A stretch of DNA of 64,000 nucleotides from Halichondria panicea (lineage: Eukaryota; Porifera; Demospongiae; Suberitida; Halichondriidae): NCBI RefSeq assembly GCF_963675165.1, contig NC_087382.1, positions 7,364,315 through 7,428,314 on the forward strand, read 5' to 3'. The number at the start of each line of letters is the position of its first letter. Position 1 is the stretch's first letter. Below are positions 3,801 to 64,000 of this stretch, piece by piece. The notes below the pieces were generated by a model. The model saw only the letters and a list, made by a program, of their open reading frames with translations, made no database searches and was not told the origin of the DNA. The translations under genes were made by a program, and so were the position numbers.

Positions 3801-6800
3801 GTATTGTTGAATCTTGTCGTAAGATCTCGTATTTGCTTGATTGCATTCAAATCTTCAACTGTAAGGTTTATGCTAACCTCTGGCTGATTAAGTGTCGATC
3901 CACTTCCACCAGTTAGTTGGTAGTATGACGAAGTGTTGGTTAAGTCTGATTGCAGTGTTATATCAGTTACTTTAAGTGATGAAGCATTAACAGTTTCACT
4001 GAAAGTTAGAACAATAACTCCGGTGTCTACATTTAAGGAGAATGAGTCGAGTACAGGATTAGTTCTGTCGGGTATCACTAGGCTAGCCTGTACCGCCATT
4101 CCACCTTGCTCAGAGATATCATTTCCATACATGTCAGTAACAGATCCTGATTTCAGGAATATGAAGGTATCATTTTCATTGTTGGCAATGTCAGTGAATC
4201 GCTTTAGGAGATTAAAGTCATTTATACCGAGAGTGAGATTCAGCAGAAGTCCATTTGACTGAGTGTTGACAACAGTTGTTTCACTTAGACTCAACACTCG
4301 AGTGGATGTTGCATTGTTATCTGTGTTATGGAACTCAATGAGAGTTTTTTCTAGTGACTCAAGCAAGATGGGTTCAGAAAACACCAGTGAAACGAATGCT
4401 GAATCACCTTCTGCATTGAGTTGGAAGTAAGTCACAATTGGCTGTGTAGTATCTGGAATATATTCGGAAACATTGACAGCTTCTTGTGCCAGAATAGGAA
4501 TGAGAGAGTTTCCGGCTGTATCAGTGGGTAGCAATGAAGCAATTGAGTTTATAGAGAGGTATGCAGTAGAGTTGTCGACAAAGAGTTCGTTTGGATTGGC
4601 CAACAGTCTAAGACGATTAAGCTGCTCGAAATTCAGTGTGATGTTGATTATGTACCAATCGAAATTGCTTGCCATCAGATTTCCTGCATAAAGCAATGCA
4701 TTAGTTTGATCAGTAGTTCCAGCTACGATGGCATTAGTTCGAAGTTGTTGAAGTTGGATTTCGGTATTTGCCACACTCTCAAAGTCAATGGCCTCATCAA
4801 ATGTGAGTGCTAGTATACCAGCGTCCATATCAACTGAGAAAGTTGTAAGAGTTGGTGATGTGATATCCATATTGAATTGGTCTACTGGTTCACCAGTTAC
4901 ATTGACAGAAGGAATGAAATTCATATCCAAGACTGTTCTGGTCAGCAATGAGATGTATGTGGTGTCGGTACTCACAGCCAATTGCCTTCTGGACTGGATG
5001 TTGACAATGTCAATAAATTCAAGCTCGATAACCACTTCTAGACCATTGGGACTAGTAACAGTACCATTTGTGAGGGTGTAGTATTCACTGTCGTTGGCTA
5101 TTATGTTAGGTGTGGACTGCAGTGTAATTGCAGTGAAGTCAACACTCAGTGACCTGACAGGCTCTGAGAATACAAGAGTCAGAGTTGGTGGGTAGTTCAT
5201 GTTCAGATAATAATCACCCAATTCTGGTGGAGTCGTATCAGGAGTGAAATCTGTTACAACAACACCAACCGATTCATTAAGAGTCCTGAGTGGATTTCCA
5301 TTTTTGTCAAATGCTGTAGTGTTGACAAATCTGAGGTAGGTTGTATTGGTGTCTGTTGCCAGATCTTCCTGAAGCTTGATGTTGTTGAGATCTTCCAATG
5401 ATAGTTGTATGGTTACAACAGTGAGATTCCATATAGGTGCAAAACTAGGAGAAGTTAGCTGGTATTGAGTGGAAAAGTTACTGATGTCATTTTGCAGCCA
5501 CAACAAATTGACAGCAAATGTTGACTGCTCAATCGTCTCTGAAAAGCGGATTATTAGTAGCCCAGTGTCGAGATTGAGATCAAAACCAGTAAGTTCTGGT
5601 TGAATGGCATCTAGACTCACATTGTCAAACTGGAAGGCTGCCATGGATAGATAATTAGGTACTACATTGTTACCACTCATATCCTCAACTGTTGAATTGG
5701 AGTATGAAAGGAATGCCTCGTTCAAATTTGTGAAGAAGTTTGGTAGGCTCTTCAAAACATTGAGATCGTAATCAGTCAAGGTAAGTGTGACGATTGTGGA
5801 GTTAATTTGTGTTGATTCCCCACCACTGATTGCAAGAGAATATGGCAGCAAAGTGGACGGGTCGTTTTGGAGGATGATTTGTGTGGGATCAAAAGTACCA
5901 GCATTTACAGTCTCGGAGAATGTTACTGTAAGTAATCCTCCATTGAAATTGAATACAGCACCAATGACTTCTGGTTCGGTAGTGTCTGTGATGAATGCTT
6001 GGGCAATCATAGGTGAATTGATAGGCTCCACTCCGTTTCCAGCCATGTCGACAATGGTGCTTGTTTCAATTGCAAGGAAGGTATTGTCCTCACCAGTGGC
6101 TAGTTCAAAGTTTGCTTTTAGAGCATTTAGATCTTCATCTGATATTGTCAAATTGAATTGCTTGGAGTTCATCTCAGAAGTACCACTGGATGCGGATAAT
6201 CGATAGTAACTTGTGACATTCACAGTAAAGATTATGTCACTGTAAAAAACAAGGCCAGTTACATTGAGACTGAAAGTGTTTACTGCTTCAGTAAAGTTCA
6301 GAATAATAATGCCCATGTTTAGATCAAACACGAAATCGTACAACTCAGGTGGTGTTATGTCAGGGATATGTTCTCCAGAAAGTTGGACTTCCTCAATAGC
6401 AATACCATTCATGTCTCTCACAAAGCTAGTGTTGAGATTGAAGTATGTATTATTCTCATTTGTGGATAGCATTTCCTGTAGCTTGATAGAGTCTAAATCG
6501 ATCTGGTCCAAATAGATATCAATGACAGTGCTGTCTTGAGTCGAAAACGTGCTTGTCTTTAGAGTATGAGATTGTGTAGGTGATTGAATACTGCTCTGAA
6601 CAGTGAGATACTCCACAACTACTGATGATGAATTGACTGTCTCATCGAACACAATTGTCAATATCCCTTCATTAACATCCAATGTGAAGTTTGACACTAA
6701 TGGTGGTGTAGTGTCGGCAGTAAATAGTCTCACTCGAGTAGGGTTACTGATATTGACATCAATGATTGGGTTGTTAAAGGTATCTTTCACTAGTCCAATG

Positions 6801-9800
6801 CCAAAGATGAGGAATGTTGTTTCATTGGCTGTGGCAAGGTTACTGGTTCTCTTTATCTCATTCAAATCAGTCACTGTAAAGTTGAGATGGATGATAGTGT
6901 CGTCAATGGGTGAGATGCTACCAGATGTTAGTGAGAAAGAACTATAAAACAATGTGGAAGTGGTGTTATCACTTGATACCAAGGTAACTTCTGATGTATT
7001 GAAGCTTTCATAGTCAACAATTTCAGAAAATGTGAAGGTTAATACGCCACTGTTCAAGTCCGCATCGAAAGATACAAGACGTGGTTCAGTTGAATCCACA
7101 GTGAAGTTTGTGACTGCAAGAGATGAGTTGGGGAATATTTCAGATACTCTATTGCCAGCCATGTCAGAAATGGCATCTTGAGTGAGAGAGAGGTAGCTAT
7201 TTTGCAGGTTAGACGCCAGAGCTCTGAGCTGGTTGATGGCATTGATATCACTCACTGACAAGAAGATTGATACTTGAGTACTGTTCTCCATACTAGTATC
7301 AGACTGAGGTCCAAGAGTGTAATTCTCAGTTGACATTTGCATGTCATTGTGCAGGGTCAATGAAGTGACATCAATACTCTGAGCGTTGACTGTCTCGCTA
7401 AATGTTAAGTATACAATTCCGAGATTCATATTGATGTTGAATGATAAAAGTACAGGGCTGTTTTCATCAGGTACAAAGGCTTGTGGTTGAATTGCTGTTT
7501 CTTCAGAAATTCCTACTAGGTCATTTTCAGCTGAGTCTGCAACATTTCCATTTCTAATTGATAAGTAAGTGTTTTCAAATCCTGTTGTGAGGTTGGTATT
7601 TCGTTTGATTTCATTCAGATCGTTCGCCACAATGAAAACAGTTATTTCCAGGCCATCTATAGAGCGAGTTACCTCTCCTCCACTGAGTGTCAGAATGTTA
7701 ATGGATTCTTCAAAAGTAGCATTGCGGCTAGCTTGAAGAGTGACTCCAGCTGGATCGAATGTAGACTGATTAACAGTGTCAGAGAAGGTTAGTGTAACAG
7801 TACCAACATTGAGATCAAGAGTATAATTGAGTAGCATTGGTGGTACATTGTCAGGAATAAACTGCTCCACAATGATCGCCTTGCCATCAGTAATTGGAGC
7901 TACATCAATACCAGCTGTATCATCTATGAGGAAAGCTGCAACGGTGATGTACGTGTCATTGCTGTTTCTTGCTAAGCCAATATTAGACTTGAGTCTCAAG
8001 AGATCGAAGTTTGACAATTCCAGGACAATGACATAGCTGTTAGCGCTGTTGGTGATGCTGCTAGCAGATGGCGAAAATACTCTTCCATCCGAGCGATATT
8101 CATTGTGTTGTAGTGTGATAGCTGTTGCATCGAATGTAGAGGAGTCTACAACATCATCAAATGAGAGTGTGATGATTCCTACATTCTGGTCATATATGAA
8201 CGAGACCAATGAAGGCCTTGTCTGATCAGGGGTGAATTGACTGACAGGCTCACGGTTTACAGGGATAACAGAAGTGCCAGCTGTATCGAAGAATACTTGA
8301 CTATGGAACGAAAGGAATATGTTCTCTGGTGTTGTTGCAAATGTCTGGTCAACTTTGAGTGCTGTGATATCAGGCCGCACTAAGTTGAGGGGTATAATCT
8401 GCAACCCTGTGATGCCATCACTGTAAACAAGGTCACATCCAGTCAGAGATAGTTCAGAAAGTCCAACAGTAGTAGTTCTCATGTTGTACAGTGTGATTCC
8501 TCCACAGTCAATGCTGTCAGGATGGATAGGTTCATTGAAAGTTAAGGTTAGAAGATCTGCATCGAGGTCCAAGCTGTATTGTAACAATTTGGGTGAAGAA
8601 ATATCAGGAGTATAGCCATTAGATTGTACTGGCAGGGCCATTTCAGAGAGGATTGCTTCAACTCTGTTAGGACTGAAAGCATTGTCCGAAATAGAAAACT
8701 CGGTAATAGAGATGAAAGTGTCATTTACACCCTTTGCAAATACAGAGGCCTTGAGAGCATTGAGATCTTCAGTTGTTATGTTCATTACTATTACTATGCC
8801 ATCAGGACTCTCTGTACTTCCACCAGTTAGTGTGTATGATAGCACAGGATCTGTTGTGTTCAATTCACCCTGGATTGTAAATTCTGACGGTTGGAGAGAG
8901 GAAGCACCAACAGGCTCATTGAAAGATAGTGCTAGTAATCCTTTGTCCAAGTCAATGCTAAATTTAAGCAACTTCGGTCCAACTTCATCTCTACCATAGG
9001 ATCTGACTATATATCCAGGTGCATCATTTGCTACAGGAACAATCAGATTTCCAACCATATCTACAACAAAGTTGGAAGTGAAAGAAATGTAGCAGTTTCC
9101 ACGGTGTGTACAGAGCTGGTCATCTGACTGTATCTCATGAACATCTTCAGGCAATAGCATAAATGTGATCACATTATTATCTGTGTTATTTGTGATGCCA
9201 CCAGTTAGATTGAAAGTTGAAAATATGGGGTCAAACAGATCCATGAGAGTGATGGCAGAGAAGTCCAACGAGGTCGCATTTATTGTTTCAGTGAAAGATA
9301 TCGTGATGTAAGTTGTTGTATCAAAGTTTATAAGTGTGAACTCAGCAATCTTTGGATTAGTGGTATCAGCTATATAGGCATCCACTGGGTAGGCTTCACC
9401 ATTAGGTACTCCATCAATAGGAATGTCTACCATATCTCTCACTGAGTCATCTTCAAAGATGAGGTAGCAATTGTCCAGTGACTCACAGAATCTCTCACGC
9501 TTGATTTCGTTCAGATCATCTATACTGAGAGTGACTTGCACTGTTGCAGAGTTGTGTAACTGCACCATGCTTGTGAGTGTGTGGTTGGCACGGATTCTTG
9601 TGCTGTTGTCTTGCAGGGTAAATAGGTTGATCATCAGAGTGCCTACATTGACAGTTTCATTGAAGTGGAGTAACAAAATACCAGCATCCATGTCCAAATC
9701 AAAGGATCTTAGTTCAGGTCTCTCCATATCTGGTGTGAACAGTGTTACTTGAACAGCACTTGCAAGGGTGATTGTGAAGAATACATTTCCAGCATTATCC

Positions 9801-12800
9801 CTTAGAGTATCACTAGTAGCAGTGAAGTATGTCGTTGAGTTAGAAACGGCAAGTGTTTCTCTTGCCTTGATCTCATTCTTGTCTGTGACTGTTATGATGA
9901 TTATGATCACAGGTCCATCCATTGATACTACTTGCCCACCAGTGAGAGAATATGTTGTATTGCCATCCATGTTATTGACGAGAGTGATGCCAGTTGGATC
10001 AACTGATCTGGCATTGACAGTTTCAGTCAAGTAGAGAGTAAGCTCTCTTGTGCGCATGTTCAAATCAAAGGCATCAAGAACAGGTCTGGTTGTATCGGGA
10101 ATGTATTCACTTACTCGAGTTGTGATAGGTAGTGCATCATTTCCAGCTAAATCATTTACAACATTAGGCTGTAGAAAAATGTATGATGTTAATTGAGTTT
10201 GTGCTAGTGAGGTGAGTTGTTTCAGCTCGTTCAGTTCGTCCAAGGTTAAATTGAGTTGTATCTTGTTCCCACTCAGTTGGATAGCAGAGGTGTTTTGACC
10301 GAGAGTAAAATTCTCAGTGGGGTCAACGTCTGAGTTGAGGAGAGTTATTCTTGATATCACAAGTGAATCAAACGTGACATTTTCAGAGAACACCAACAAG
10401 ACTTGGCCGACATTAAGGTCAAGATTGAAGCTGTCCAGTGACGGTGGCACAATGTCAGCATCATTCATTCCAGTAAGTAGAGCAGGTGTAGAAATTTCCA
10501 CAACTGGAAGATTTGCCATATCCGCTACTGCAGAGGTTGTTATACTGAGATAAGTGGGAGCCACAAAGTGGCCAAGTGGTGGGAGCATCCTGATAGCCTC
10601 TAGGTCACTGCTATTGACCGTGATTGTGATATCTGTGGAATCAATAAGGCTCACACTTCCACCAGTGAGAGTATACTTCTCAGTTACATCAGTATCATTG
10701 GCAGTAGTCCTTAGAGTAAATTGCCTAGGATCAAGTGAAGAAGCCCTCACAGTCTCTGAAAACGTCAATATGAGTAGCAACGGTGGAAGGGTATTGCTCA
10801 TATCCAGTCTGAAAGAAACTAGCACAGGATTGGTGGAATCAATTGTGAATCTCTCAACAAGTAGGGGAATAAATTGACCACCGACAAGATTTCCTGTGGT
10901 ATCAGAAACGAGAGTTTCCGTGAATGTTAGGAAGGTGTTATTCTCATTTGTAGCAAGAGTAGTGATTTGCTTGATTCTGTTGAGATCTTCGTCAGACAGA
11001 GAAATAACTACAACTGGTCCATTGCTACTGACTGAAGCAGATTGATTAGTTAAGGCATGTTGAGGAACCAAAATATCATGCAGCATGACTTGAGTCACAT
11101 CTAATGATTCAACATCAACCGTTTCTGTGAAATAAAGAGTGAGTTCACCAGCATCGAGATCTAAATCGTACATCACCAGTTCAGGATTCACAGTGTCATT
11201 CACAAGCACTGTTGCTTGCAGTGCTGCATCCACTGAAATAGTTTGGATAGCATTAGCATTCATATCAAGTAGAGTTGAGTTGTCAAGAATGATGAAAGTG
11301 TTTAGAGCACTTGTTGCTAAGCTCGAAATATTTTTGATGAAATTGGCATCCTCAGTGCTAAGAATGAACGATACGATATGGCTGTCACCACTGGTTAGAG
11401 CACCTCCAATAAGTTGCCTCTGTGGAAAGAATCTTGAGGGTCCACCAATCAGTGTAATTCCTGTGAAGTTGAACTCAAGGACACTGACTGTCTCAGAGAA
11501 GTAGAGAAGGGTTGTATCATTACCCAGGTTTATGTCAAACCTCAGTAGTTTTGGTTGCGTTGTGTCCATCACGTAGCATGAACTATTGACATTGATAGCA
11601 TTTGAGCTCACTACTGCAGCTATAGGGTTTCTAGCATTGTTGTCATACACCATACCTTCTCTAAACAAAATGTACGTATTCAAGCCAGTTGTTGCAAGAT
11701 TTCTTTGACGCTTAATTTCATTGGAATCTACTGTTGTTATGTCAATCCTCACAATGATTTCATCAATTGAAGAAACATTCCCTCCAGTGAGTTCATATTC
11801 TGCAGCTAGTGAGTTACGTCCACTACGGAAGGCAATAAAGCTAGGATCAAGCGAAGAGACATTAACAGTTTCAGAGAAGGTAAGCTCAAGATACGGTGAA
11901 GTGTCTAGATCGAGGCAGTATTGAACGACTACAGGTGCTGTGAAATCACGATTGAAAGAGAACACAGGTTGAGCATCAAATGTCTCAATTGCATTGATAG
12001 GATTGTCACTCATGTCTCTTACAGTGTCAGCAGTCAGTTGTAGATAGGTATCGTTTAGTGATGTTCCAAGCATGATCATGGCCTTCAGTTCATCAAGGTC
12101 AGTTTTGGTGAGAGCAATGGTGATTACAACTCCGGTTATGTTGGGTGTTGGAGTTCCTCCAGTTAGTCTATATACTTCAGAAGCATTGGCAACATTAGGA
12201 GTGTTTTGAAGAACTATTTGAGTCAAGTCAAGGGATGTTACATTGACAGCCTCACTAAATATGAGCACAAGAACTTCAGAGGTGATATCAAGAGAGAACC
12301 TTGTTAGATTTGGATTTGTCACATCGTTTCTGAGCAGTGAGACTTGAAGTGCGTCGTCATCTAAGATGGGAGCAACAGCAGAACCTGCCACTTCATCAAT
12401 TGTTGCTGCTCGGAGTGACAAGAATGTATTGTTTCTCTCTGTAGCAAGTCCATCTCTCATTTTGATGTTATTCAGATCGTCGTCAGCTATGTTAATGGTG
12501 ATAGTGTATCGATTCATGCTGTTACTCGACCCACTCGTTAAGGTGTATGAATCAACTGGATCAAGCATAAACTGATCATTTTGAAGAGTAATGAATTCTG
12601 TATTGAGTGTGTCCACATCTACAACGTCGTTGAACGTGAGGATAAGTTCAGCTGTGTTCATGTCCAGCTCGAATGCTAGAACAACAGGGTTTGTGGTATC
12701 TGGTACAAAGCCTCCTGGTATTACGTTGATAGGTGGCTCTTCAGTCACTGGATTTCCGGGTGCATATGCATTGCCAGCCAAGTCAAAGATAAAGCCTCTC

Positions 12801-15800
12801 TGGAATGAAATGAAAGACGATGACTGATCAACTGCAAGATCTTGTCTAAGCTTTATCTCTCTCAAATCAGAATTGCTGAACGCAATTTCAATGACTTCCT
12901 CAGTTGCAGTGACGTAGGAAGCATTTCCTCCAGTGAGATTGAACACTCCGTCACCGAGAACATTCCTGTGCAAAGAAATCAGATCGAAGTAGACTAAAGA
13001 GATGTCGACAGGCTCAGAGAAAGCAAGATTGATGACACCTCGATTCATGTCCATCAGAGTGAAAGTAGTCAGCTGTGGTTCTATGGAGTCTCTAGTGAAG
13101 CTACTGACTTGCAGGCCATTATTCTCTGAAATGGCTGCAACTGGATTGCTGCTTGTGTCAGTGACAAGCATATTTGTTAAAGTTAAGTAAGTGTTGTCCA
13201 CAGATGTTGCAAGGTTTTCCAATGCTTTAATAGCGACAACATCAGAATCTCCAAAGTTAATAGAGTCAACAATTTCAAATCGGATAGATGGTAATCGTTC
13301 AGTGGTATGAACAAGATCATTCTGGAGTGTGAAACGCACGGTTGCATTTGATCCGTTGTTTTGCAGTGTGATATATCTTGACTCAAATACAGTGTACTCC
13401 ACTGTCTCGCTGAAGTAGAGAGTGATGATTTCTAAGGTGAGATCAATGTTCCACGATAGCAGTTCAGGAGAAGAAGTGTCTTCTGTAAATATAATTGGTG
13501 TTGGTGAGTCATCTAGGCTGCGAGTGTCATTCACTGCAGTAATTGAATTGCCAAAAGTGTCTCGAGCAAATGTAGAGTACAGACGCAAGTGACAGTTAGT
13601 AGAATCAGTACACAGTCTGGTATCGGCCTTGATTAAGTTCAGATCATCATTAGTCATTTGAATAACTACTAAATTGTCATTGGTGGAGTTGACTGTACCA
13701 TCACTTAGCATAACAGAGGAATCGGAAGCTAATAGGAAATTTTGCAGCCTCAGAGATGTAACATCAATAGTGGATGCATCGATAATTTCCTCAAAGAGTA
13801 TCATCAATATTCCAGAATCCAAGTCAAAGCGGACAAACTGGGTTACAAACGTAGGCGATTGATCCTGAGTGTAGATGAGTGGGGGGATTGCTTCACTGGA
13901 GGTAATTGGGATCACTGGATTGTCCATTGTGTCATTTACGAGGAGCTGTGTATGCGAGAGATAGCAATTGGAGCCATTAGTGCAAAGAGTAGCTATCTTT
14001 GTGATATTATCCCGATCAGACTTTGACAAATCAATAATGAGAATGTCACTGGACACCAGAGGATTCTCAAGTGTTCCGCCAGATAGACTGTATACAACAG
14101 TAGCCTCTGGTGTGCGCAGATCTGAGAATGAAATTTCAGTGACGTCAAAGGTGCTAATGTTCACCGTCTCAGTAAATGATAGTGTGAGTGTGGCCAGTGT
14201 GAAGTCAATCTGGAATGAGACAAGTTCTGGTCGTATCATGTCAAAGCCAAATCTGTTCACTTGCTGAGCATTGTGTGATGGGATAGATACAACGGCATTA
14301 CCACTTCTGTCTTGGGCAAGTTTTTGAGTGATAGAAATGAAGGTATCACCAGGATACGTAGCCAGGTCGTCATATCTCTTGAGAGCATTCAGGTCGGACA
14401 AATTCAGATACACCTCCACTACAGAAAACTCTGTTCTGCTGTAGTCACTTAGTGAAGTAATAATGAATGACCTCGTTGGAGTAGTCATGAAATTCTGTAG
14501 TGTAATCTCCGTAATGTTGATGAGAGGATTCACTGTCTCCGAGAAATATAATACTAGAGTGCTGTTTTCCAGGAACAAATCAAAGCTCACAAGTTCTGGA
14601 TTGGTCACATCTGGGAATACAAAGTCAGCTGGTATTGCTTCATCATCATTAACCATGTAAACATTTGTTCCAGCCATGTCCCTAATGAAGAGTCTTGAAA
14701 GGGAAAGATAGGCATTATTAGTACTGGTTGCAAGCTGCGTGAGATCTTTGAGCGCATCCAAATCATATCTACTGAGATTTAGAACCATCAGAATGCCATC
14801 AGGGTAGACAGCTTCACTCATGATAGTTGGTGAATAGAATTCAGTCTCTAGAGAAGAGTTGAAATGATTTTGCAGTCTCAACAGTGGCGGTTCGAGTGTG
14901 AGATGGTTAACTGCTTCAGAAAAGAGCATGTGTATGAGTCCATCATCAATTGAGATGTTCCATGATATGAATCGAGGCCTAGTTGAATCAACAATGTATT
15001 GGAAGACAGGACTAATGAGTTCTAGGTTGCCATTTCCAGCTGTGTCAAATACTACGTCATCTGCAAAGAATACAAAGGTGTCATTTTCACCTGTAGCCAA
15101 TCCTGTATCAACCTTGATTTCATTGAGGTCATCGTCCGTGATATTGAGATACAGTACCTGATCATTCTGCAAAATGACACTGCCACCTGTCAGATAGTAC
15201 TCAGTGTTTGGCATCATGACAAAGTCGACAAATCTGACTCCAGTAATGTTCAATGATGATGCTAGAACAACTTCACTGAACGTTAGACTCACGAAACCTC
15301 TGTCAGCATCAAAGAGGAATGCAACCAGTATAGGAGGCTCGGTATCAGCAGTAACATTGAGTGCTCTCAGTCCAGATCCATCAGGTACTGATCGGATTAT
15401 ATTGGCTGAATAATCTTGGGTTGTTGAGTTTGTGAGAATGACATGAGTATTGTTGATTTCAGTGGCCAGACCAACAATGCGCTTAATGTTATTGGCATCG
15501 GCAACACTCGGCAGTAAAGTGTAGATAGGATGATAGAGGCGATCGATGTCTGTTGGAGTGATTGTACCCATGTCTCTCATGGTGTAAAAGAGGTTTCCTC
15601 CAGTGGATGGGTCGCTAGAAATTGTGATCTGAGTGAAATTGAAAACCTCGAAATCAATCACTTCATCAAATGTAAAGTAGAACATTTCAGGTGTTCTATC
15701 GAATGTGAACTCCTTTAGCATTGGTCTTGTGATATCAGGAATGAGAGCACTTGTTTGCAATGCTTCACTGATGTCTATTTCTGTAACAGAGTTGTTTTTC

Positions 15801-51800: not shown

Positions 51801-54800
51801 GAGAGAAGTGGTTGTATATTATCTCCAAAATATTCTTCAACAAGCAAGGCTTCTCCATCAGCAATGGGTACAACTGCATTACCAGACATGTCTGCAATTG
51901 CAATGGAGCTTAGCATGATGTAACATGTGCCTTGTCTTCCACAAAGGAAGGGGTTGCGTTTCAGACCAATAGCATTCTCAATGGAGAGAGATACAGTTAT
52001 AGTGATATCATTTGAAGATACTGTTCCACTGGATAGCTGGAGTACGTCAGGAGGGTCAACATTAAATGACTGAATTGTGAGTCCAGAAAAGTCCAAGCTT
52101 GTTGTATTAACAACTTCTGAGAATTCTAGGGTGAACCGTGCAAGATTGAGGTCAAAAGATGCAAATCTGACAAGAGTTGGTGACATTGTATCAGGTATGT
52201 AGCCAGTCACAAGCAGGCCCATATTCACTATTCGAGGTAGCAATCGATTCCCAAATGTATCTGTTATTAACAGGTCAGAGTAGGAAATATAGCAAGAGGT
52301 GCTCTCCAAGCAGATTTCAGCTCTTCGGATATTATTGATGTCACTTTCTCCAATTTCGACGACTAGACTATTGGAGATACTGCTAATAACAAAGCTGTCA
52401 GTGGATATTTGCAAAGAGTCGGCACTAGACTGTCTATTTTGTAAAGTGAGCTCACTGGGTGTAAATGAGTCAGGAAGCACAACTTCATCAAAGCTTAAAG
52501 TCAGCTGTGTAGTATTCATGTTGATGTCAAACCCAACAAGGATAGGTTGTATGGTGTCATTTCCAACATTAGAAGCCTGTATTGCATTGTTTTGAGGTAT
52601 AGCTATTGCTGGGAAACCATAAAAACTGTTCAATAAGGCAGTGGAATGGGAGATGAAGGTGTTAGAAATCATTGTCCCTAGGTCAGTGAAAGTTTGGAGT
52701 ACATGATAGTCATCACTTGCGAGATTCACTCTAACGATAGAGGTATCCATCGTTAAGAAACTTCCACCACTGAGTTGTAAGAACTGAGTAGCATTTGCCA
52801 TCCTGTTCTGAAGAATTAGATCAGATATGTTGAGGCTCTGTATGTCAATGGTTTTGGAGAAGCTTAGTGTTAACATTTCAGAGTTCAAAGACAATTCAAA
52901 TGAAACAAGCGAAGGCCCAGAGCTGTCTGGGATGAACGTGTCTACTTGCAAAACAGGGATTGGTACTACAGGATTGTTAGATGTATCTTCAAACGCTGAT
53001 GCTGTCATGGACAAGAATGTAGTATTCCTATCGACAGCTAGGTCAAGATTGCGATTAATTTCATCCAAGTCATTCCGAGATAAAGTTATTACTACCACAT
53101 TCCCGAGTGTGGTTGCATCCCCACCACTTAGAGTATGTTGTACAGTCGAGCCGTTAGAAGCAAAGAGAGTCACTTGTGATGCATTGTACGTATCTGCTGG
53201 TACAATTTCTGAGAACGTAATGGACAGTGTTCCTTCATTCAGGTTAAAAATAAAGCTACTAGCTTCAGGAGACAAAAGATCAACAGTGTAGCTTGTAGCT
53301 TGTAGTGCATTCACAAATGAGATCTCATTCACTGGCAAGTTGACTAGATCTACAACAGTACCTTGAGCTACTGAAAGATATGTAGTGTTAATACTCGTTC
53401 CAATTGGTGGTGAAGCTAGGATCCTGTTATAATCGATGTCACTGATATTGATGGTTAGAATGGTGGTATCTCGTAAGTCAAATAAGCCTCCAGTAAGAGT
53501 AAGACTTGTAGCAGAGCCAAGCTGGTCAAGTAGAGTTATCAGAGATGTATTAAGACTTGAAGCGTCAATAACGTCAGAGAAAGTCAAACGCAAAACTACT
53601 CCAGCTCTGTCACCTGGGGCTTCATAGCTGAATGAAACTAAAACTGGTGCGGTTGTATCTTCAACAATGTTGTCAACAGTTGTTGGCATGTTCGGAGGAA
53701 TTCCTTCAAATAAGTTCCCAGTAGCATCAGTGAAAGCAAGGGGACTGGCTACAACAAAGGTGTCTGTGGCTGATGTAGCCAAAGAGGAGTTTCTCTTCAG
53801 GAACGACACATCCTCATCATTGAGTCTCACTACAATATTCAAGCCATCAATTTCCACATTACCTCCTGTGAGAGTGTATGAGACAATAGGTGCTGTACCA
53901 CTATCCACAATACTGATTTGGGTAGCATTGAAAGATGATGGTACTATTGGTTCAGTAACAGATAACTCCAGAGTGTTGGTATCCAAGTTAAGAACAATTG
54001 AGGAAAAGCGAGGTTGAGTGGTATCTGGTTTGTATTTAGCCACTTGTAGAGCATTTTTAGAACTTATCGCCACTACAGGATTCAAGAACACATCAGTAAC
54101 TGCCCCCACTTCCATGACGAGATAAGTAGTATTCTCAGATGTTGCCAAATCAAAGTTAGCTAAAATATTGTTCAGTGTCACAGAGTCGAATGGTATTGTC
54201 AACGTGCTATTGTCAGCTGTTGTAGACGGAGCTAGATTGTCCATGAACCTGTACGAGGAGACGGGAGTAGAACCGTTCTCACTCTGTAGAGTTAGGAGAG
54301 TGACATTCAAGGAAGATGGTGGAATGAGCTCATTGAAGTACAAGATTAGCACACCAGTATTCAGATCCAGATCAAAAGATGTTAGGATGGGCCTTGTTCC
54401 GTCCAAGAAGAACTCACCCACTGGAAGTGCATTGCTAGATGAAATAATCCCTGATGGGACAAAGTTGGTATCTTGGATAAGACCAGCAGCTAGACTGATA
54501 AATGTGTTCTGTGTATTTCTTGCGATGTTTGGATTGGTATTCAGAATGTTGTAATCATTTGGTGCTAGGATTACTTGCACAATAGATCCATGCATGCTTC
54601 CAGAAGCAAGAGTCCCGTTAGTCAGTACTAAACTGGTAGTAATTCCTACTGTAAGGACTTGGCTGCTCTGGATTGTGACCTTTGTCAGATCTATGGTGTC
54701 AACGAGAACCGTCTCATCAAATGTGAAAGTCAGTAGACCTGAGTTTAGATCGAGAGAGAAGTTAGTGAGTCGAGGTGCTGTAGCATCTTCAAGATGAATA

Positions 54801-57800
54801 CAAGCTATCAGTCCCTCCTCAAACGGAATCTCCACAAGGTTTAGTGCAGCCATATCGAGTACTGTATTATTGGTGGCAGAAAGGAACGTTGAATTCTCAT
54901 CTTGAGCTAGAGACATCATCAATTTCAGAGCATTCAAATCATCATAGTGAAGTCTATACTCTATTAGAGACGCAGAATTGGTAGATAAGGGGGTACCTCC
55001 CATTAGAGAAATAAATGATGAACTGGAGCCATTAGTTGCGTTTTGTATGACCAGCTGAGTAGGATCAAATGAAGTTATATTCACAACTTCCGAGAAAGAA
55101 AGAACCAATTTACCAGCATCAATGTCAAGAGTGTAACACTCAATATATGGTCGTGACTCATCAGGCGTAAATTTAGCAACTGAGAGAGCACCTGAAGATG
55201 GTATAGCAATAAGAGGGAAGTTATTTGTTGCTTGAGCCGCTATATTGATAATCGACAAGTATGTATCATTTTCTGAAGTGGCAATGTTGGGATTGGCCTG
55301 TAAGCTTTCAAGGTCTGTTAGGCTGAGTGTGAATTGAATGTCAAAGCCATCGTCCACTGTGGCTACCAAATGCATGCCAGTTGTCAAAGTGTATTGATTG
55401 AAAGTATCAGAGCCATCTGCATCAGTCTGCAATGTAATTCCACTTGGGTCGAATGCAGATACCCTCATTACATCATCAAATGTGAGATTGACCATTCCTG
55501 TGTCCATGTCCAGATTGAAAGAGGACAACCTTGGTTGAGTGGTGTCTGGAATCACAAGCTCGGCTTGGAGTCCCATGCTAGATGGTATAGCAACAACTCC
55601 GTTCCCAACAATATCCGTTAGAGCTGCTGAACCAATTGAGATAAATGTGTCGCTGTTGTCATTGGCGATATCTGCATTCCCTTTCAAATCAATTATGGTC
55701 TGAGGGCTGAGCTCGATAAGAATAGTAGTTCGGTCAGACGATATAAACGAAGCCACACCACCACCCAAAGGTACTAGTACTCCTGCATTCGACATGCTTT
55801 GGATTGTGAATTGGTCAAGTGCTATCTGAGATATGTCAACAGGCTCATCAAATTGCAGTTGAATTGTGCTGTCCGTGAGCGTCAATTGAATGAATCGTTG
55901 CAGTATAACTTCGGACATGTCAGCTGTATATCCTGCAGCTGGTTGTGCATTAACACCGTTAGTAACAGGTACTGCGTCAGCAACAAGCATTGAGGAATAG
56001 GTAATATAGGTATTTTCAAGACCCGTAGCCAACCCATCCAAAGCCTTGATATTGATCACGTCTTGCTCAGTTAGTTGGATTGTCACTTCACTGGCAAGGA
56101 ATCCTGTAGTTAAGAGTACTCCTCCGGTGAGATTATACTCAACTGTTGATAGAAAAGCGTTCTGTAAGGTGATAACTTCTGGGATAAAGGAGCTGAGGGT
56201 AACAGGATCGTCAAAACGGAGCGAGAGCTCTCCTGAGTTTAGATTGATACTGAATTCTATGAGACCCGGGCCAGTTGTGTCATCGATGAATCCTCTAGGA
56301 AGGACTCCTAAAATTGCTGCACTAACAGGGTTCTCAGCCATATCTAACAGAGAATTCTGGGGTAGACTCAAGAAGCAGTTTGTAAATGTAGTACAGAGTC
56401 TACTGTCAAGTTTGATATTAGTTAGATCATCAAAATTAAGCTGAACAACAATTGTAAGCCCATTTCCACTAGATGTTAGTCCACCAGTTAGGTTGAGAGT
56501 GGATTGAAGTGGTGGGCCTGAAAATGACTGCAGAACTGCTCCAGCAAAGTTGAGACTGCTGGCACGAATAGTTTCAGAAAAGCTGAGTGTCAAAGTACCA
56601 CTGTCAAGGTCAAACTCATTAAATTCCACTAAAGTTGGGATTATTGCATCAGGGCTGAGTGAACTGACTTGTACAGAGTCATTAGCTGGTCTTGCAACTA
56701 CAGAATTGTTAGCAAAGTCCATTCCAAAAACAGAAGTGACTGAAATAAAACAGTCACCACGGCTTGTGCACAGGTCTAGCCTATAGATCTCATTCAAGTC
56801 AGGTGTGGAAAGTGCAATAGCAATACCAGATGTAACTGTTGGATGAGTAGTAACGATTCCGCCTGTCAATGAGAAGCTAATAATTGGGTATACAGAGGAG
56901 TTTATTAGCATTAGCTGGTTGAGGTCAATTGTTGTGACTTCCAGTGCTTCGTCAAAGTACAACTCTATAGTACCATTAGAGAGATCAACAAAAGCTGAGA
57001 TAAGTTCAGGACGGGTGACGTCTTCACTGATATTGAATGGAGCCACTGCCTCAAAGAATATATTAAAATTTTCAGATGTATCGGCTACAGCTCCTTCTTC
57101 CAGCAACAAATAGATATTTCCTTGGGACAACGACTTCAGTCGATCAAGATCTTGAGGCATCAGTGTCACAGTGAGAATGTTCAGCATTGATAAGCCAGTG
57201 ATTTGCATCTGTAGGCTGATTGTTGTTGTTGCATTAGCTGGATTGGTTGAGTCTATGAATATCCATCGATTTCCTTGGATTGATGTTGCATTAATGGGCT
57301 CATCAAATGTAGTGACCAACTCTCCTTGGTTTAGATCTAAGGAAAATTCAAGAATGATTGGTCCTGAGGCATCTTCGATTATAAAGTCAACTGAAATGGC
57401 ATTATTCACTGTAATCTCCTCAATGGCGACTCTAGATGTATCCAATACAGTGCCATTAGCAACGGTGAGATATGTGTTGTTAGTAGTTGCACCTAATCCT
57501 GCAGTGCCCTTGATGAAAATCGAGTCCTCCATAACCAAACTAATGGTAATTATATCACTGAAGATATTTGCACTAATAGAGCCTCCAGTTAGTTTCAGAG
57601 TCATACTAGGATTTATAACGCCTGTGCCAGAAACAAGGGTGAGACCTGTCACATTAAAGGTAGTTACATCGATTGCCTCATTGAAAGTCAATGCTAATGT
57701 CGATATATTTAAGTCTAGAGAGAAGCCAACTATTACTGGAGCTGTTATGTCTGGTAGTATATAAGATGCAGGTATCGGGTCTGCTGGCGTAATCACAAGA

Positions 57801-60800
57801 TTTCCAGCAACATCAGCAAACGCTCCATCAAGAGTAAGCACAAACAATGTTCCTGATGCAGATGATGAAGTGGCTAGCTTGATTGCATTCAAATCTTGAG
57901 CACTCAGTTGAATTTCAGCCGAGTTGACAATGTTTAACGGCATTGTGGCAACAGTACTTGTTGTCAGAGAGAATTCGATCAATGGGGACTGAAGATTGTC
58001 TTGTATGACGATACGGCTTACATTCAGAGTTTCAATATCTATATTCTCAGAGAACACCAGAGATAGGATAGCTTGTCCAAGGTCTAAAGAAAAGTTGGTT
58101 ACTATCGGAGGATCTCTATCTGGAACAACAAAATCAGCTTGAATGCTGTCATCTGAAGGTACTGAAATAATTGGATTGCCAGCTATATCTACAACTGTGT
58201 CCTGGTTGAGGGAAAGGAATGTGGTCGACTCATTCCTTCCAAGAGATGAAGACCCCTTGATGAAGTTGAGATCGCCAGCAGGTAGGGGTATGAGGGATAC
58301 TACAGAGTTGTTTTGTGGAAGTGTAATACTTGATAACATCCGTCTCTCAATGGCTGTATTATTATCTCTAGCACTTTGTAGTGTTATCTGAGTTGTGTCT
58401 AAAGTAGAAGCTTGTACTACTTCAGAGAATGTCAGAGACAATACACCGATATCAAGGTCCAGTGTAAATCCTTGTAGAGTGGGATTAGTTTCATCTCTAA
58501 GCACGGAGCCAACCATAAAAGGAGCAGTTGGTAAGATTGGATTGAGAGTGTTTCCACTCAGATCTCTGACAGCAATTGCATCAAACGTGACATAGGTGTC
58601 ATTAGGAAAGTTTCCTAAATCATTGCGTGCCTTAATTGCATTCAAGTCTTCAGGGAGAAGCTGAATGGAGACTTCAAAGGTAGAGTTCGAGACTATCCCG
58701 TCTGTTAGTTGATAGCCAGAGGTTGATCCAGGCAAAGGTAGAATTGAAATGGCAGTAAAATCAAAAGTTGATGTATTCACAGTTTCTGAGAAAGTGATGT
58801 TGAGGAGTCCAGTATTTAAATCCAAATTTATTGAGAGGACACCTGGTTCACTGAAATCCTCAGTAACTTCCGAAACTGCCAATGATGTACTTCGTACTTC
58901 AGCTGTATTTCCGAAATAGTCTGAAATGAAGCCTGGCAGAGTAGATATAAAAGTATTGTCTGTATTGGTTCCAATATTTTCTGTTAGACGAATTAATTCT
59001 AGATCTGTATTGAGTAGATCAATTACAACAGTTCGGCCATCAGGAGAGGACAGAAGTGAGTCAGCATCAGATAGTTGAATAGACACTGTGGCTGCAGTGG
59101 CATTAACATCATTTGTAATGAAAATGCTGGTGAGTTGAAGTGAAGCACGATCGACCGCTTCATTAAAAGATAGATTGAGAGAGCCAGCATTCAAATCAAA
59201 GATGGCATCAAGCAGGACAGGTGATGAGGAGTCACCGAGGAAATCAGAAACAAGTTGAGCTTTACCATCTGTGATTGGTAGGATATCGTTACCACGGTAA
59301 TCATCGATATAGTCTGCTCTCAAGATCAAGTAGGTGGTAGTATTATCCACAGCAAGTCCGGCTATTGTGTTGATTGTAATCACATCTAAAGGTGACAAAG
59401 TAATATCGACAATGTGACCATCGGAACTAGATGATAGGCTTCCCGAGGATAGCTCAAACACCTGGTCTGCTCTGGATGTACGCTTGCTCTGAAGCCGCAA
59501 TGCTGGAGGATACTGTGTAGTGACATTAACAACATCACTGAAGGTCAAAAGCAAGTGACCAATGTTAAGATCGAGAGTGAATTTTTCGAGGATAGTGAAT
59601 GTTATCGCAGTCACGTCTTCAATAAGTGTTACTTGTCCATCAACAACTTCCAGACTTTCCACGAATGCTGTATCAGTAAATCCTCCTGATTCTATTGTTA
59701 GGTAAGTATTATTGACTGAGGTTCCAAAGTTGTCATTGAGTTTAACTGCACTGATGTCATTCCTTGAAATTGCCACAGTGATCACAGTGTCTGAATATTG
59801 AGTGTTAAGTACTACTCCATCTTCCAACCTCCTCACAATTCCAGCCTGTGATAAATCAGAGTGCAATAGAATGCTAGAAACGTTGAAGAGATGCACAATG
59901 ACTGGCTCATCAAATGTAAGAGATATTTCTTCTTCACGGAGGTTGATTGAAAATGAGGCTAGAGCAGGAGGCGTTTGATCACTAGTGTAATTAGCTACTG
60001 GTTGTCCATTCACTTCACTGGCACTCCTTTGGGTGTAAGATGTATCCAGGACATAGCCAGCAGGAGCGGAGATGAAAGTGGTAGTATTGCTGTTAGTACT
60101 GTTGCTCAATTTCAGTGCATTTACATCCCCATCGAGCAATTCAACCACAATATCTTCAATGTCATTACTCACAATGTTCCCTCCAGTGAGACTGTACATC
60201 ACGTCCGACTCAGAAATGTTATTGTCAGAGTGTAGTGTAAGAGAAGTCAATTGCAGGGTACTCACATCAACAGGCTCATTGAAGTGAAGAACTAGAAGGT
60301 TGGCATTAAAGTTGAAGTCAAATGCAAGCAACACTGGTCCATTTTCATCAGCAATCAGATCTCCAACGATAAATCCAGGGAATGCTTCGAGAACGGGATC
60401 AAATGAATTTCCACTTGTGTCCACAAGGAAATTACTCGATGCTACAAAATAGCAAGTTGATCTGATAGTGCAAAGTGTAGGTTCACGTTTCACAAAGTTG
60501 AGGTCTTGTGCATTCAACCTTATAGTAAGTGATGTACCGTCAGCACTAACCTGAGTGCTACCACCAGTTAGATTGTACGAGTGAAGGGGATCTTCAAACA
60601 AAGACTGAAGTCTTGCATTCTCTATGTTCACACTAGATACATTGACAGCCTCAGAGAAGCTGAGTGTAATCTCTCCAGTTTCCAAGTTGAGTGAATCAAC
60701 TGATAGAAGCATTGGTGATGTAACATCTGCAATGAACTTTGAAGCATTCAATTGTAAAGCATTTCCGTTGGTCCTTGGTGTAACTGGGAGCCCCACTGAA

Positions 60801-63800
60801 TCCTGAATAGTCTCATTGGTGTAGGTCAAGAAGCAGTTTGTAGCCGAAGTACACAATGGGAGAAGTTTAATGGAGTTTATATCATCTGGATGTAGATTGA
60901 TGGTCAGAACTCTCCCGTTGATGGATACACTGATGTAATTCACGAGGGAGTAGCTAATGGAAGAGAAGAAGCTTCCTTGAAATGATAACTCCTGTACAAC
61001 CAAGCTGGACAAATTAACAAACTCATCAAAGGACAGTATTAGCTGATCATTGTTCAAATCCAACGCAAATTCAATAATATTCGGATTTGTAATGTCTAAG
61101 TCGAAAGCTCCAGCCGGCAATACTGTGGGCACAATGGAATTTCCATTCGTATCTTCAATGGCATCAACGGTTATTCTCAAGAAGGTATTCTCTGCACTGG
61201 AAGCTAGGCCATCGATACTTCTCAGGTTGCTTACATCATCCTCACTGAGCTCAATCCTGACAATAGGTGAATTAGCTGTAGAAATTCCACCACCACCAAT
61301 GAGTGTATACCGAACAATAGTACTGGCGGCCATGTCTTGTATGGTCAGTGCTGTTGGTTGTAGAAGACTGGGATTAACTGTCTCTGAGAATGTCAGGGAA
61401 ATTTCAGCTGAGTTCAATGATAACGTGAAATTTAGAAGTTCAGGTGGGTCAGTATCAGGTATGTATGAAGAAGCTGAGAGAGCATTGGGGATAATTATGT
61501 CTGTAGCTCTATTCTCAGCAGGATCAATTACAATACCTTCAGACACACTGATATAAGTGGTGCTGATTGTAGAGCCAATTGCTGGAAGTGCTTTTATAGC
61601 ATTTTGTTCGTCTTCTGCTAACCTCAAGAGAATAACATCTGGAAATGGGTTGGAAACGTTAGCATTAAAAAGTGTGATAGCTGGTCCAGAGATTTCTTGG
61701 CTTCCAAGAAGAAGCAATGCAGATGTATTGTAACTAGAGAGTATAATTGGCTCAGAGAAAGTGAGGTAGATAAAACCTTTATTCAAGTCAAATGTGAATC
61801 TGTCTAAACTTGGTCGAGTAAAATCAGCGGTGAAATCGGATACATTCAGTACTAAACCACTTGTGTCGAACAGGTTACCCCTAACATCTTGAACAAGGTT
61901 CTGCTGTGCAATGAGGTAAGTGGAATTCTCGGTCTCCCCAAGAGGAGGTAGTAATCTGATATTGTTGATTACGTCAACGTTTATTCTCAAAGTTGGGGAT
62001 GGTACTGATGTGACAAGGCTGTTTCCAGTCAAGCCAATTGAGACGAGAGAATCCGTCGAACTCGCAGAAAGTGTGAGAAGTGATAGATTAAGTGTACTTG
62101 GTTCAACCACTTCATTAAAGTAGAGAACAACATAAAGTGGAAGCATTCGGTCATCCATCTTAAAATCAAAAGCAACCAGTTTAGGAGGGGAGATGTCAGA
62201 GACTGTATTGGAAGCTGGGAAGGGATCACTGATGGGAATCACTTCGCTCATAACTCCAGCCAAGTCAATGAAAGTACCTACTGAGAGTGCAATGTTAGTT
62301 GTAGAAGGCGCTCTGCCTAGAAGATCATTGATTTTAATCCTATCTAAATCAGCATCATTTAGAAGCACAGTAACTTCTCGGTTGCTAGTAGCAATTGCTT
62401 GGCCTCCGGATAGTTGCACTCTCTGAGGGTCATTTCGATTGGGCAGGAAGGTGATCCCAGTGAAATCAATTGCTGACACATTAATTGGCTCAGTGAATGA
62501 GAGGAAGAGCATTCCTTCATTGAGATTGAGATCAAAACTGAACAGCTCAGGTGGTGTTACATCGGGTTCGATATTTGTAGCAACAATAGCAGACGTGTTG
62601 CGAATACTAAGCACTGCATTTCCAGAAAGATCAGTTGCAAAAGTGGGCGGGAATGAAATATATGTCCTATCAGCAAACACTTCACTGGTTTTGATGGCAT
62701 CAAGGTCCGAACTGGAGAGAACTATTGTAAACACATTGTTGATTTCCTCACTAGCAATACTGTCAGTTAGTTGATAATTAGTTGAACCAGCTGCTTCGAC
62801 AGACACAGAGCTTTGGATTAGGATATCACTAACAGCAACTGAGGAAGTATTCAGTGCCTCATCAAAAGTAAGAGCGATTGTTCCTAAATTTAAGTCAACA
62901 TCGACATTCTGTAGACTTGGTCTAGCATTATCAGAAATTACACGAATAGCTTGTTCTGATGTTGTTGCTTCGATACGAATGTTATTTGCATCTATCACTG
63001 CTCCCATTTGAATGCTTAGGAATGGACTTTGCACAAGACTCTCACGACTCTTGATTTGATTTAGGTCATTATCAGTAAGCTCAATTCGGATGCTTGACGT
63101 CAAATTGAACGTTGCATTGACATTGGACTCAAGAATAGAGTTAGTTAGGCTATATGATTGTGTTGCAGTTGCCCCATCTTGAAGAGTAAAGCCGGAAATC
63201 ACCACCATGGTACTATCGATAACTTCATTGAACATAACTTCAAGAATTCCACTGTTGAGATCCAGGCTAAAGAAACTAATAAGGGGAGGTGTTGAATCAA
63301 TCACTGTCGCAGACGAATTAAGAGGTTGGTCTGCATCAATTGCAATGAGCCCATTGCCGAAGGAGTCTAAAACAGCACCGGAGGTAATAGACAAGAATGT
63401 TGTATCAACATCACCAAAAGAAGGATTTCTCTTGATAGCATCAGAGTCAGCTTGCAGTAGAGTTACGTAGACAATAGCGGAGGTAGTATTTGGTGTTATA
63501 ACACCACCAGCCAGGGTCAGGGAGACGGTTGATGCATTTGTTGTAGGACCATTCTGCAGTGTTACTTGTGTCACATCCAATGTTGATACGTTCACTGCCT
63601 CACTGAATTCGAGAACTATAGTATTTGTGCCAAGGTCTAAATTAAATGCGACTAACACTGGATTGCTGTCATCTCCAGTAAAGTTCATAACTTGGAGCGT
63701 AATACTGTTTACGTTGAGACGAGCGAGATCTTGAATTGCTGTTGATATTATTCTGAGGAAAGTGCTGTTTCTGTTCGTTGCGAGATCTGCTATTCCCCTA

Positions 63801-64000: not shown

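Follow-up and report, generated by a model that had tools for sequence, protein, structure and literature searches.

A 23-unit super-repeat in a giant coding frame of the sponge Halichondria panicea, with a five-unit cassette that recurs at other spacings in two sister genes

A stretch of 64,000 nucleotides from the demosponge Halichondria panicea (the window in what follows; assembly GCF_963675165.1, contig NC_087382.1, positions 7,364,315 to 7,428,314, or C6:7364315-7428314 in our numbering of this 131-Mb assembly) is the 3' half of a giant minus-strand gene, here called gene A, whose product is a tandem array of 335 units of about 124 residues. These units form a higher-order repeat of 23: they resemble one another most at a distance of 23 units and its multiples, and a five-unit cassette that begins with two cysteine-loop units stands twice in the 23-unit block. 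The cassette is also recovered in two further giant genes on the same contig, B and C, at other spacings. Read together, these features suggest, with a probability that we put at roughly 0.5, that the product of gene A is a secreted giant filament, an extracellular spacer or ruler in which the cassettes would act as interaction nodes.

Gene A and its repeat unit

An additional 100 kb of DNA upstream of the window was joined to trace the frame of gene A, and coordinates above 64000 continue the window numbering upstream of this minus-strand gene. A single open frame runs from 845 to 125515 (845-64000 within the window), with 41,557 codons and no stops, compared with 1037 to 4225 stops across the same DNA in the five alternative frames. 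The predicted product has a mass of 4.48 MDa, with 4943 acidic versus 1546 basic residues. A splice-acceptor-like TTAG immediately precedes the giant frame, and a candidate signal-peptide-like exon, MSSTSHLQLVIFTLLALATMS, has its ATG at 127619, with donor and acceptor phases that match by eye. The coding sequence is probably composed of one 124.7-kb exon plus this short signal-peptide exon; with its exon boundaries predicted in this way, gene A resembles the giant single-exon frame of Aphrocallistes vastus, discussed below. Within the array, an antisense open frame of 301 residues is present on the forward strand at 27699-28601. Stops are generally scarce in one antisense frame of gene A (1037 versus 2286 and 4225), and the 301-residue frame may therefore be a by-product of codon use.

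A unit profile, seeded with units of the window and refined on genes A and B, identifies 335 units in gene A, with a mean period of 124.2 residues and gaps of at most 45 residues between matches. In the window part of the frame it finds 170 units, the same number given in a preliminary description made from the letters of the window. The repeat array reported there, at 4070-64000, is present with wider limits, reaching 845 at one end and 125503, upstream of the window, at the other.

Models of the unit indicate that these are immunoglobulin-like (Ig-like) domains, more precisely SbsC-like beta-sandwiches. AlphaFold2 predicts a single unit to be a beta-sandwich whose second half includes a helix (predicted local distance difference test, pLDDT, 92.6), and a five-unit cassette (units 312-316) is modelled with a pLDDT of 89.5 and a predicted template modelling score (pTM) of 0.64. 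The best structural alignment of the modelled unit is to the S-layer protein SbsC (Z 9.5-9.7, root-mean-square deviation 2.5, 101 residues aligned, 11% identity), followed by unrelated chains at Z 8.2 and, among lower matches, by the titin Ig chain 4uow at Z 5.1. Foldseek ranks TssM first (E 0.0056) and SbsC at E 0.0096, with nothing at E 0.001 or better.

Sequence searches return weak matches to known families. Big_5 (PF13205) is the commonest weak Pfam match, in 5 of 58 window units at E up to 0.1 (best 0.008), and its curated cut-off of 23.6 bits is unmet at 23.3 in one 2000-residue stretch and 17.5 in another; since the Pfam matches are weak only, the unit is not assigned to Big_5. For CopC (PF04234), the first stretch as a whole scores 29.5 against a cut-off of 23.3, with no single stretch above the cut-off. 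No Ig or Fn3 family was matched by hmmscan in three stretches (2000, 3333 and 2000 of the 41,557 residues) and 58 window units. Likewise, the unit profile yielded nothing below E 0.2 among the sequences of solved structures, PHROGs matched just one of the 58 units at E up to 0.01, and NCBIfam gave no match in two stretches.

The 23-unit period

The preliminary description listed 13 doublets of cysteine-loop units in the window at spacings of 11 and 12 in strict alternation, and all were found, without exception. In whole-gene numbering (the unit number of that description plus 165), they start at units 174, 185, 197, 208, 220, 231, 243, 254, 266, 277, 289, 300 and 312. Across the whole of gene A there are 27 complete doublets, starting from units 13, 24, 36, 47 and so on to 312, again with spacings of 11 and 12 throughout; the doublet at units 1-2 is partial and the one due at units 323-324 is absent. 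When units are classed by number modulo 23, classes 1, 2, 13 and 14 (59 of the 335 units) hold 55 of the 56 units with both loop cysteines (hypergeometric p 5e-57, with the phase picked post hoc). The sole exception is unit 147; four in-class units, namely 1, 323, 324 and the partial 335, have no aligned cysteine pair.

The period is equally evident in the unit sequences at large, as measured by pairwise identities over at least 60 shared columns. Mean unit identity rises from 0.267 under shuffled unit order to 0.302 at lag 23 (z 17.8) and is at background for lags 22 and 24, in line with the super-repeat that had been proposed for this coding DNA. Identity also peaks at all eight further multiples of 23 tested, with values of 0.289-0.294 at lags 46, 69, 92, 115 and 138. 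Across 300 shuffles and lags 2 to 166, the maximum z was 4.4, compared with an observed 18.1. Removal of the cysteine region leaves a lag-23 z of 15.7, and removal of the doublet units as well leaves 11.8. Lags 11 and 12 give z 5.0 and 4.7; with the cysteine region excluded the values drop to 3.7 and 3.2, and with the doublet units left out as well they drop to 2.5 and 2.4.

A tree of 459 of the 462 units of genes A and B points the same way. The nearest relative in gene A is of the same class modulo 23 for 100 of 333 A units, where chance predicts 14.5, and lies within two places for only 7 of 333, which is the pattern of grouping that the preliminary description had offered as its own check. 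Class labels change 311 times on the tree, against a shuffle mean of 395 and a minimum of 380 in 200 shuffles. Units of both A and B thus group by block position and not with their neighbours, as in a higher-order repeat. The class phase was set after the doublets had been seen; the lag and tree tests are independent of phase.

Unit lengths carry the period too, their autocorrelation in gene A being highest at lag 23 (r 0.33), then at 46 (0.23) and 69 (0.20); together with a class-17 motif kept in 13 of 14 copies (see below), this bears out the claim that further marks recur every 23 units. Of 123 alignment columns, 114 contribute to the excess of identity at multiples of 23, and the ten strongest account for 34% of it. 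By class, identity is highest in classes 2, 5, 14, 15 and 17 (0.314 to 0.367; between-class mean 0.266), and positional similarity is hence strongest at certain positions, which is the principle of the titin super-repeats.

Gene A holds 14.6 copies of the 23-unit block in total, about twice the seven or so envisaged in the preliminary description, and approximately 7.4 copies' worth lie within the window. In minus-strand order these are copy 8 (units 162-184; 57023-64000, extending to 65497 beyond the window), copy 9 (units 185-207; 48527-57022), copy 10 (units 208-230; 39989-48526), copy 11 (units 231-253; 31460-39988), copy 12 (units 254-276; 22931-31459), copy 13 (units 277-299; 14243-22930), copy 14 (units 300-322; 5612-14242) and a partial copy 15 (units 323-335; 845-5611), the last unit of which is truncated at the stop codon.

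The five-unit cassette

Each cassette consists of five units: two with the cysteine loop, two that are less marked, and one that, in its strongest form, carries the ITDGKA motif. Cassettes occupy classes 1-5 and 13-17 of the 23-unit block, and linkers occupy classes 6-12 and 18-23. The pattern [IV][TS][DN][GT][KQNR][AG], written around ITDGKA after inspection of class 17, is present in every class-17 unit but unit 201 (13 of 14) and in one other of the 335 units, namely unit 5, which stands at the equivalent cassette place. Class 17 also has additional acidic residues at D25, D101, D107 and D113.

At an offset of 12, classes 1-13, 2-14, 4-16 and 5-17 match with z 3.0 to 4.8, and classes 3-15 with just 0.6; the mean for units 1-5 against 13-17 is z 3.35, cysteine columns included. 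Linkers 6-12 and 18-23 showed no correspondence: mean z was 0.19 at offset 11 and 0.17 at offset 12, and 0.01 and 0.31 at the control offsets 10 and 13. As the linkers match at neither offset, the block is best written as a cassette of five, seven linkers, a second cassette of five and six linkers. The duplication of an 11/12-unit block suggested in the preliminary description is thus retained for the cassette, and a duplication of the whole half-block is not supported, as the linkers give no signal. Either a five-unit cassette was copied or kept, or a half-block duplication is so old that the cassette alone still shows its trace. Cassettes were aligned as 14 non-overlapping examples (A3), in place of a dropped alignment of 43 five-unit rows (A1) in which rows overlapped the query and were aligned out of phase.

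The 13 cassettes of the window, all on the minus strand, lie at 59234-61096 (units 174-178, the first two with the cysteine loop), 55163-57022 (185-189), 50708-52558 (197-201, the fifth unit without the DGK motif), 46679-48526 (208-212), 42218-44062 (220-224), 38135-39988 (231-235), 33692-35521 (243-247), 29573-31459 (254-258), 25139-26932 (266-270), 21029-22930 (277-281), 16493-18370 (289-293), 12326-14242 (300-304) and 7853-9730 (312-316, the units modelled with AlphaFold2). A further cassette is expected on the same strand at 3695-5611 (units 323-327); units 323-324 have no cysteine pairs there, and the listed 32 best cassette starts do not include unit 323.

History of the array

The copies of the 23-mer are far apart in both residues and bases, which indicates an ancient amplification of the block followed by continued divergence. 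Protein identity from copy to copy is 0.255 to 0.335, and DNA identity between units is 0.431 at lag 23 versus 0.407 to 0.412 at lags 1, 5, 22, 24, 30 and 40. Tandem Repeats Finder reported nothing within the array, its sole row being at 765-800, and there was no sign of homogenisation between the 23-unit copies, as would be seen in satellite-type higher-order repeats. The comparison with satellite DNA made in the preliminary description is therefore not sustained for copies that have about 30% of residues and 43% of bases in common at lag 23.

An account by selection alone would dispense with the amplification of a 23-mer and have similar residues selected at regular places on an older array. 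The lag-23 identity, just 3.5 points above background, and the 34% of the excess held by the ten strongest columns would suit it. However, serine codon families (TCN or AGY) agree within classes more than in shuffles (z 4.3, 0/300), unit length is correlated at lags 23, 46 and 69, and the lag-23 signal persists at z 11.8 even without the doublet units and the cysteine region, which makes this account very improbable. Because serine codon families and unit lengths agree within classes, the 23-mers appear to share descent and not to be products of pure convergence. Four-fold sites (z 1.9, 13/300) and leucine codon families (z 0.9, 53/300) are near or at saturation.

Given shared descent, the history may be drawn in three steps. 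A domain of about 124 residues would first have multiplied in tandem, as the array itself shows; a five-domain cassette would then have come to stand twice per 23-block with seven and six linkers between, as is partly shown by the offset comparisons; and the 23-block would have been amplified long ago to 14.6 copies, which the lag tests show to be about 30% identical today with their register kept.

The period might be no more than the record of such an old block amplification, in a protein where many domains are needed and their spacing is not, and where diverged units no longer recombine. Many linker classes also retain position-specific similarity, the excess identity extends over nearly all columns (114 of 123), and copies are near-equidistant whatever their separation, copy distance having little effect beyond the nearest neighbour (identity 0.289 to 0.302 at lags 23 to 207). 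Against such neutrality, the cassette and not the linkers recurs between half-blocks and across three genes, and 13 of 14 copies still carry the class-17 motif despite near-saturated four-fold sites. As diverged units may hold register without selection, the neutral account keeps about one chance in three.

Sister genes at other spacings

Gene B is a divergent frame 5.5 kb upstream of gene A, on the forward strand at 131056-179316, with 16,087 residues, 127 units and a start that resembles a signal peptide by eye. Its period is 18 (lag 18 z 5.6; lag 36 z 7.4) and fades at greater distance (lag 54 z 2.2, 10/1000 shuffles; lag 72 z 2.9, 1/1000; lag 90 z 1.0), and the first windows along the gene give no period-18 signal. 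In the tree, the nearest B tip is of the same class modulo 18 in 31 of 126 cases, against 7.0 expected. It was also considered whether this 18-mer might be the 23-mer of gene A minus one cassette, as 7 + 6 gives 13 linkers. The numbers fit neatly, but linker order gives p 0.022 in one of two arrangements and 0.40 in the other, and a cyclic control outscores both; such a relation may or may not hold.

Gene C lies on the minus strand at C6:2382770-2431617 and comprises frames of 6172 and 10,065 residues separated by a short intron, across which they were joined by script. It has about 120 units (123 profile matches merged into 120, 16 of them of odd length), a signal-peptide-like start (by eye) and a 3' tail of three TIG domains and one Calx-beta domain. 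The identical pipeline detects no super-period in gene C, where the top z is 3.5 (lag 2) against a shuffle maximum of 3.8, as an account by neutral history would allow. These results also bear on the possibility that the period is an artefact of segmentation or assembly. A method artefact is rejected because gene C shows no lag above the shuffle maximum while gene B shows 18 and 36; moreover, the fetched DNA of genes A, B and C contains no undetermined bases, the frame of gene A is open for 124.7 kb, and its units are probably too different for an assembler to collapse or expand them. An artefact is hardly credible.

The five cassette places of gene A match classes 7 to 11 of gene B with z 2.0 to 8.9, and the tree joins A2+A14+B8 (support 0.91), A4+A16+B10 (0.88) and A17+A5+B11 (0.85). 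When cassette places learned from gene A alone, with the cysteine columns removed, were used to rank starts in the sister genes, units 25, 97, 1, 61, 79 and 43 came first in gene B (z 4.3 to 2.6; next 1.2) and units 1, 54, 84, 17 and 11 in gene C (z 3.8 to 2.7; next 1.8). A cysteine-loop unit occupies one of the first two places in all six cassettes of gene B and in four of five in gene C (start 17 being the exception). Spacing is 11 or 12 units in gene A, mainly 18 in gene B with a first interval of 24, and irregular in gene C; the arrays of all three open with a cassette. Since profiles derived from gene A recover the cassettes of B and C without the cysteine columns, the cassette looks like a conserved module that predates the three-gene split, with the genes differing in spacing. 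The whole-genome searches scored best candidates only, giving a family of at least three genes, and there may be further members in the genome.

The ends of the three genes differ in several respects. The stop codon of gene A truncates its last unit (335) mid-domain, and gene B begins with the second half of a unit, gene A ending with the first half of one. The intron of gene C follows the LTG of a unit, which is the same place in the unit where gene A has its stop; the DNA at the end of gene A reads GAAACTAAC, and gene C has a GTGAGTTAA donor at the equivalent place. In the flanks scanned (the 10 kb downstream of gene A, the interval between A and B, and 1.7 kb after B), no additional unit was prominent and no relative of the TIG and Calx-beta tail of gene C was found, and among the frames and flanks scanned the Calx-beta and three TIG matches occur only at the end of the gene C frame. 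The sponge aggregation factor combines Calx-beta domains with its family's own C-terminal domain.

A proposed filament with regularly spaced nodes

All three proteins look as if they are probably secreted, judging from the signal-peptide-like starts of B and C, the candidate exon of A, and an excess of glycosylation sequons in gene A (746 versus 597 in shuffles) and gene B (377 versus 255). For gene A, the cassettes would then be nodes at every 11 or 12 domains, for partner binding or for the cross-linking of chains, and the linkers would set the pitch. At 4 nm per domain, the titin value (PMC7427331) transferred to this chain, gene A would measure approximately 1.3 micrometres with cassettes every 44 to 48 nm (about 46 nm), and gene B approximately 0.5 micrometre with a cassette every 72 nm or so. 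In genes B and C the node would recur at different pitches, mainly 18 domains in B and irregular in C.

Several observations weigh against a ruler with nodes. Retention of register need not by itself imply selection, as units so diverged would hardly pair for unequal exchange. Conservation among classes is uneven: class 1 (0.252) lies under the between-class mean of 0.266 and class 4 (0.269) barely over it, some cassette classes are no more alike than linker class 6 (0.305), and cassette position 3 corresponds weakly (z 0.6). The motif is missing from unit 201 and the doublet from units 323-324; cysteine-loop units occur outside cassettes (A147, B011, B127, C081 and C114), and the cassette-like start 17 of gene C has none. 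Gene C has no period, and the unit lengths of gene B have no peak at lag 18, their top lags being 40, 63 and 23. Gene A ends mid-domain, and the picture of its C-terminus may be incomplete. Finally, the chain shape and the pitch in nanometres are provisional, because the five-domain model has a pTM of 0.64.

The cassettes could instead be points of processing or assembly, through cleavage, disulfide cross-linking or calcium-dependent folding. Such roles would accord with the pairing of cysteines in a loop that in other units is a frequent site of glycosylation sequons (119 of the 462 units of A and B at column 89) and with the extra acidic residues of class 17, but cysteines six columns apart in one loop would, by the secondary structure of the model, suit a bond within the domain; we regard this explanation as improbable. 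As for the ruler itself, it is tempting to suggest that an early-branching animal evolved an independent extracellular one, in which a single five-domain node was deployed by three giant genes on one contig at three pitches (11/12, 18 and irregular), with spacing tunable through domain number. We regard this wider proposal as less likely than not.

Neighbourhood of the genes

Four minisatellite-like arrays of low complexity, translating as VTTVTT or CHHCN, lie in opposite orientations at 185831-187414, 187574-188887, 198827-200084 and 200078-201568. Beside them are two related-looking frames, at 189368-193813 (with Pfam Chlamydia-PMP repeats) and 216184-221172; arrays and paired frames perhaps represent a rearranged segmental duplication. 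Downstream of gene A, two minus-strand frames (L005:2536-3483 and L005:6922-7767), which look near-identical at their ends and the first of which matches glutamine synthetase, probably arose by recent tandem duplication. Cadherin repeats lie in open frames that reach 7948, 6172 and 6027 residues (on C16, C3, C7 and other contigs), and very long exons are thus not uncommon here. Along with these cadherins, ten Wnt matches mark the genome as that of an animal, whereas the 14 control genomes, as far as named, are prokaryotic; a sponge origin also accords with the likeness of neighbouring genes and with the A. vastus precedent. A search for cysteine peptidases, aimed at silicatein, gave 77 matches, and in the three loci read (L024, L025 and L027, out of eight fetched) the active-site cysteine, which is replaced in silicatein, is retained.

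Comparison with known systems

The super-repeats best known in coding sequence come from muscle proteins, and their period is taken to reflect a partner filament. Titin, with its coding sequence spread over many exons as opposed to the one giant exon of gene A, is the nearest in principle: its A-band, with 11-domain super-repeats in the C-zone, is likewise a long tandem of beta-sandwich domains with positional likeness. According to PMC10665226, equivalent positions of titin super-repeats resemble one another more than other domains of the repeat, with surface conservation at two positions, and in PMC7427331 the case is made for titin as a ruler, its domains being spaced 4 nm apart. The domains of gene A are nevertheless of another sequence family (no Ig or Fn3 match in the stretches and units tested), its period is 23, and that of gene B 18, as opposed to 11, and its product is apparently secreted.

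In structure, the closest domains are those of the S-layer protein SbsC and Ig-like domains of the Big_5 type, both bacterial. SbsC provides the best structural alignment (Z 9.7, at 11% identity to the unit), and Big_5 the commonest weak Pfam match, which stays under the curated cut-off. In size and exon structure, gene A resembles Avas.s016.g412.i1 of the glass sponge A. vastus, a giant animal protein of 49,014 residues in a single 147-kb exon (PMC10282587); in view of that exon, gene A is neither the longest nor unique as a single giant exon.

Higher-order repeats have also been described elsewhere. Those of alpha satellite are non-coding, with near-identical copies; they share with gene A the progression from unit to multi-unit block to amplified block, whereas gene A is coding and its DNA identity at lag 23 is about 43%. 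Human NBPF (Olduvai) genes have 3-mer higher-order repeats in protein-coding sequence, with units of about 1.6 kb and a recent increase in the human lineage, whereas the repeat of gene A is old, has 23 units and is strongly diverged. The statement in the preliminary description that such nesting is unusual in a coding exon is thus to be qualified, as both the NBPF repeats and the titin super-repeats (PMC10665226) are coding.

Our search of open-access literature found no long super-repeat in a non-muscle secreted giant, and no paralogues with differing periods built on one cassette. If the present reading is true, gene A would provide a second, unrelated case of a super-repeat, with sister genes at other spacings or with no period, in which it can be asked whether a period reflects history or the geometry of a partner. 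It would also suggest an order of events, with the cassette older than the split of the genes and different blocks amplified in A and B. Finally, a super-repeat that went undetected by a DNA repeat finder was readable from the protein.

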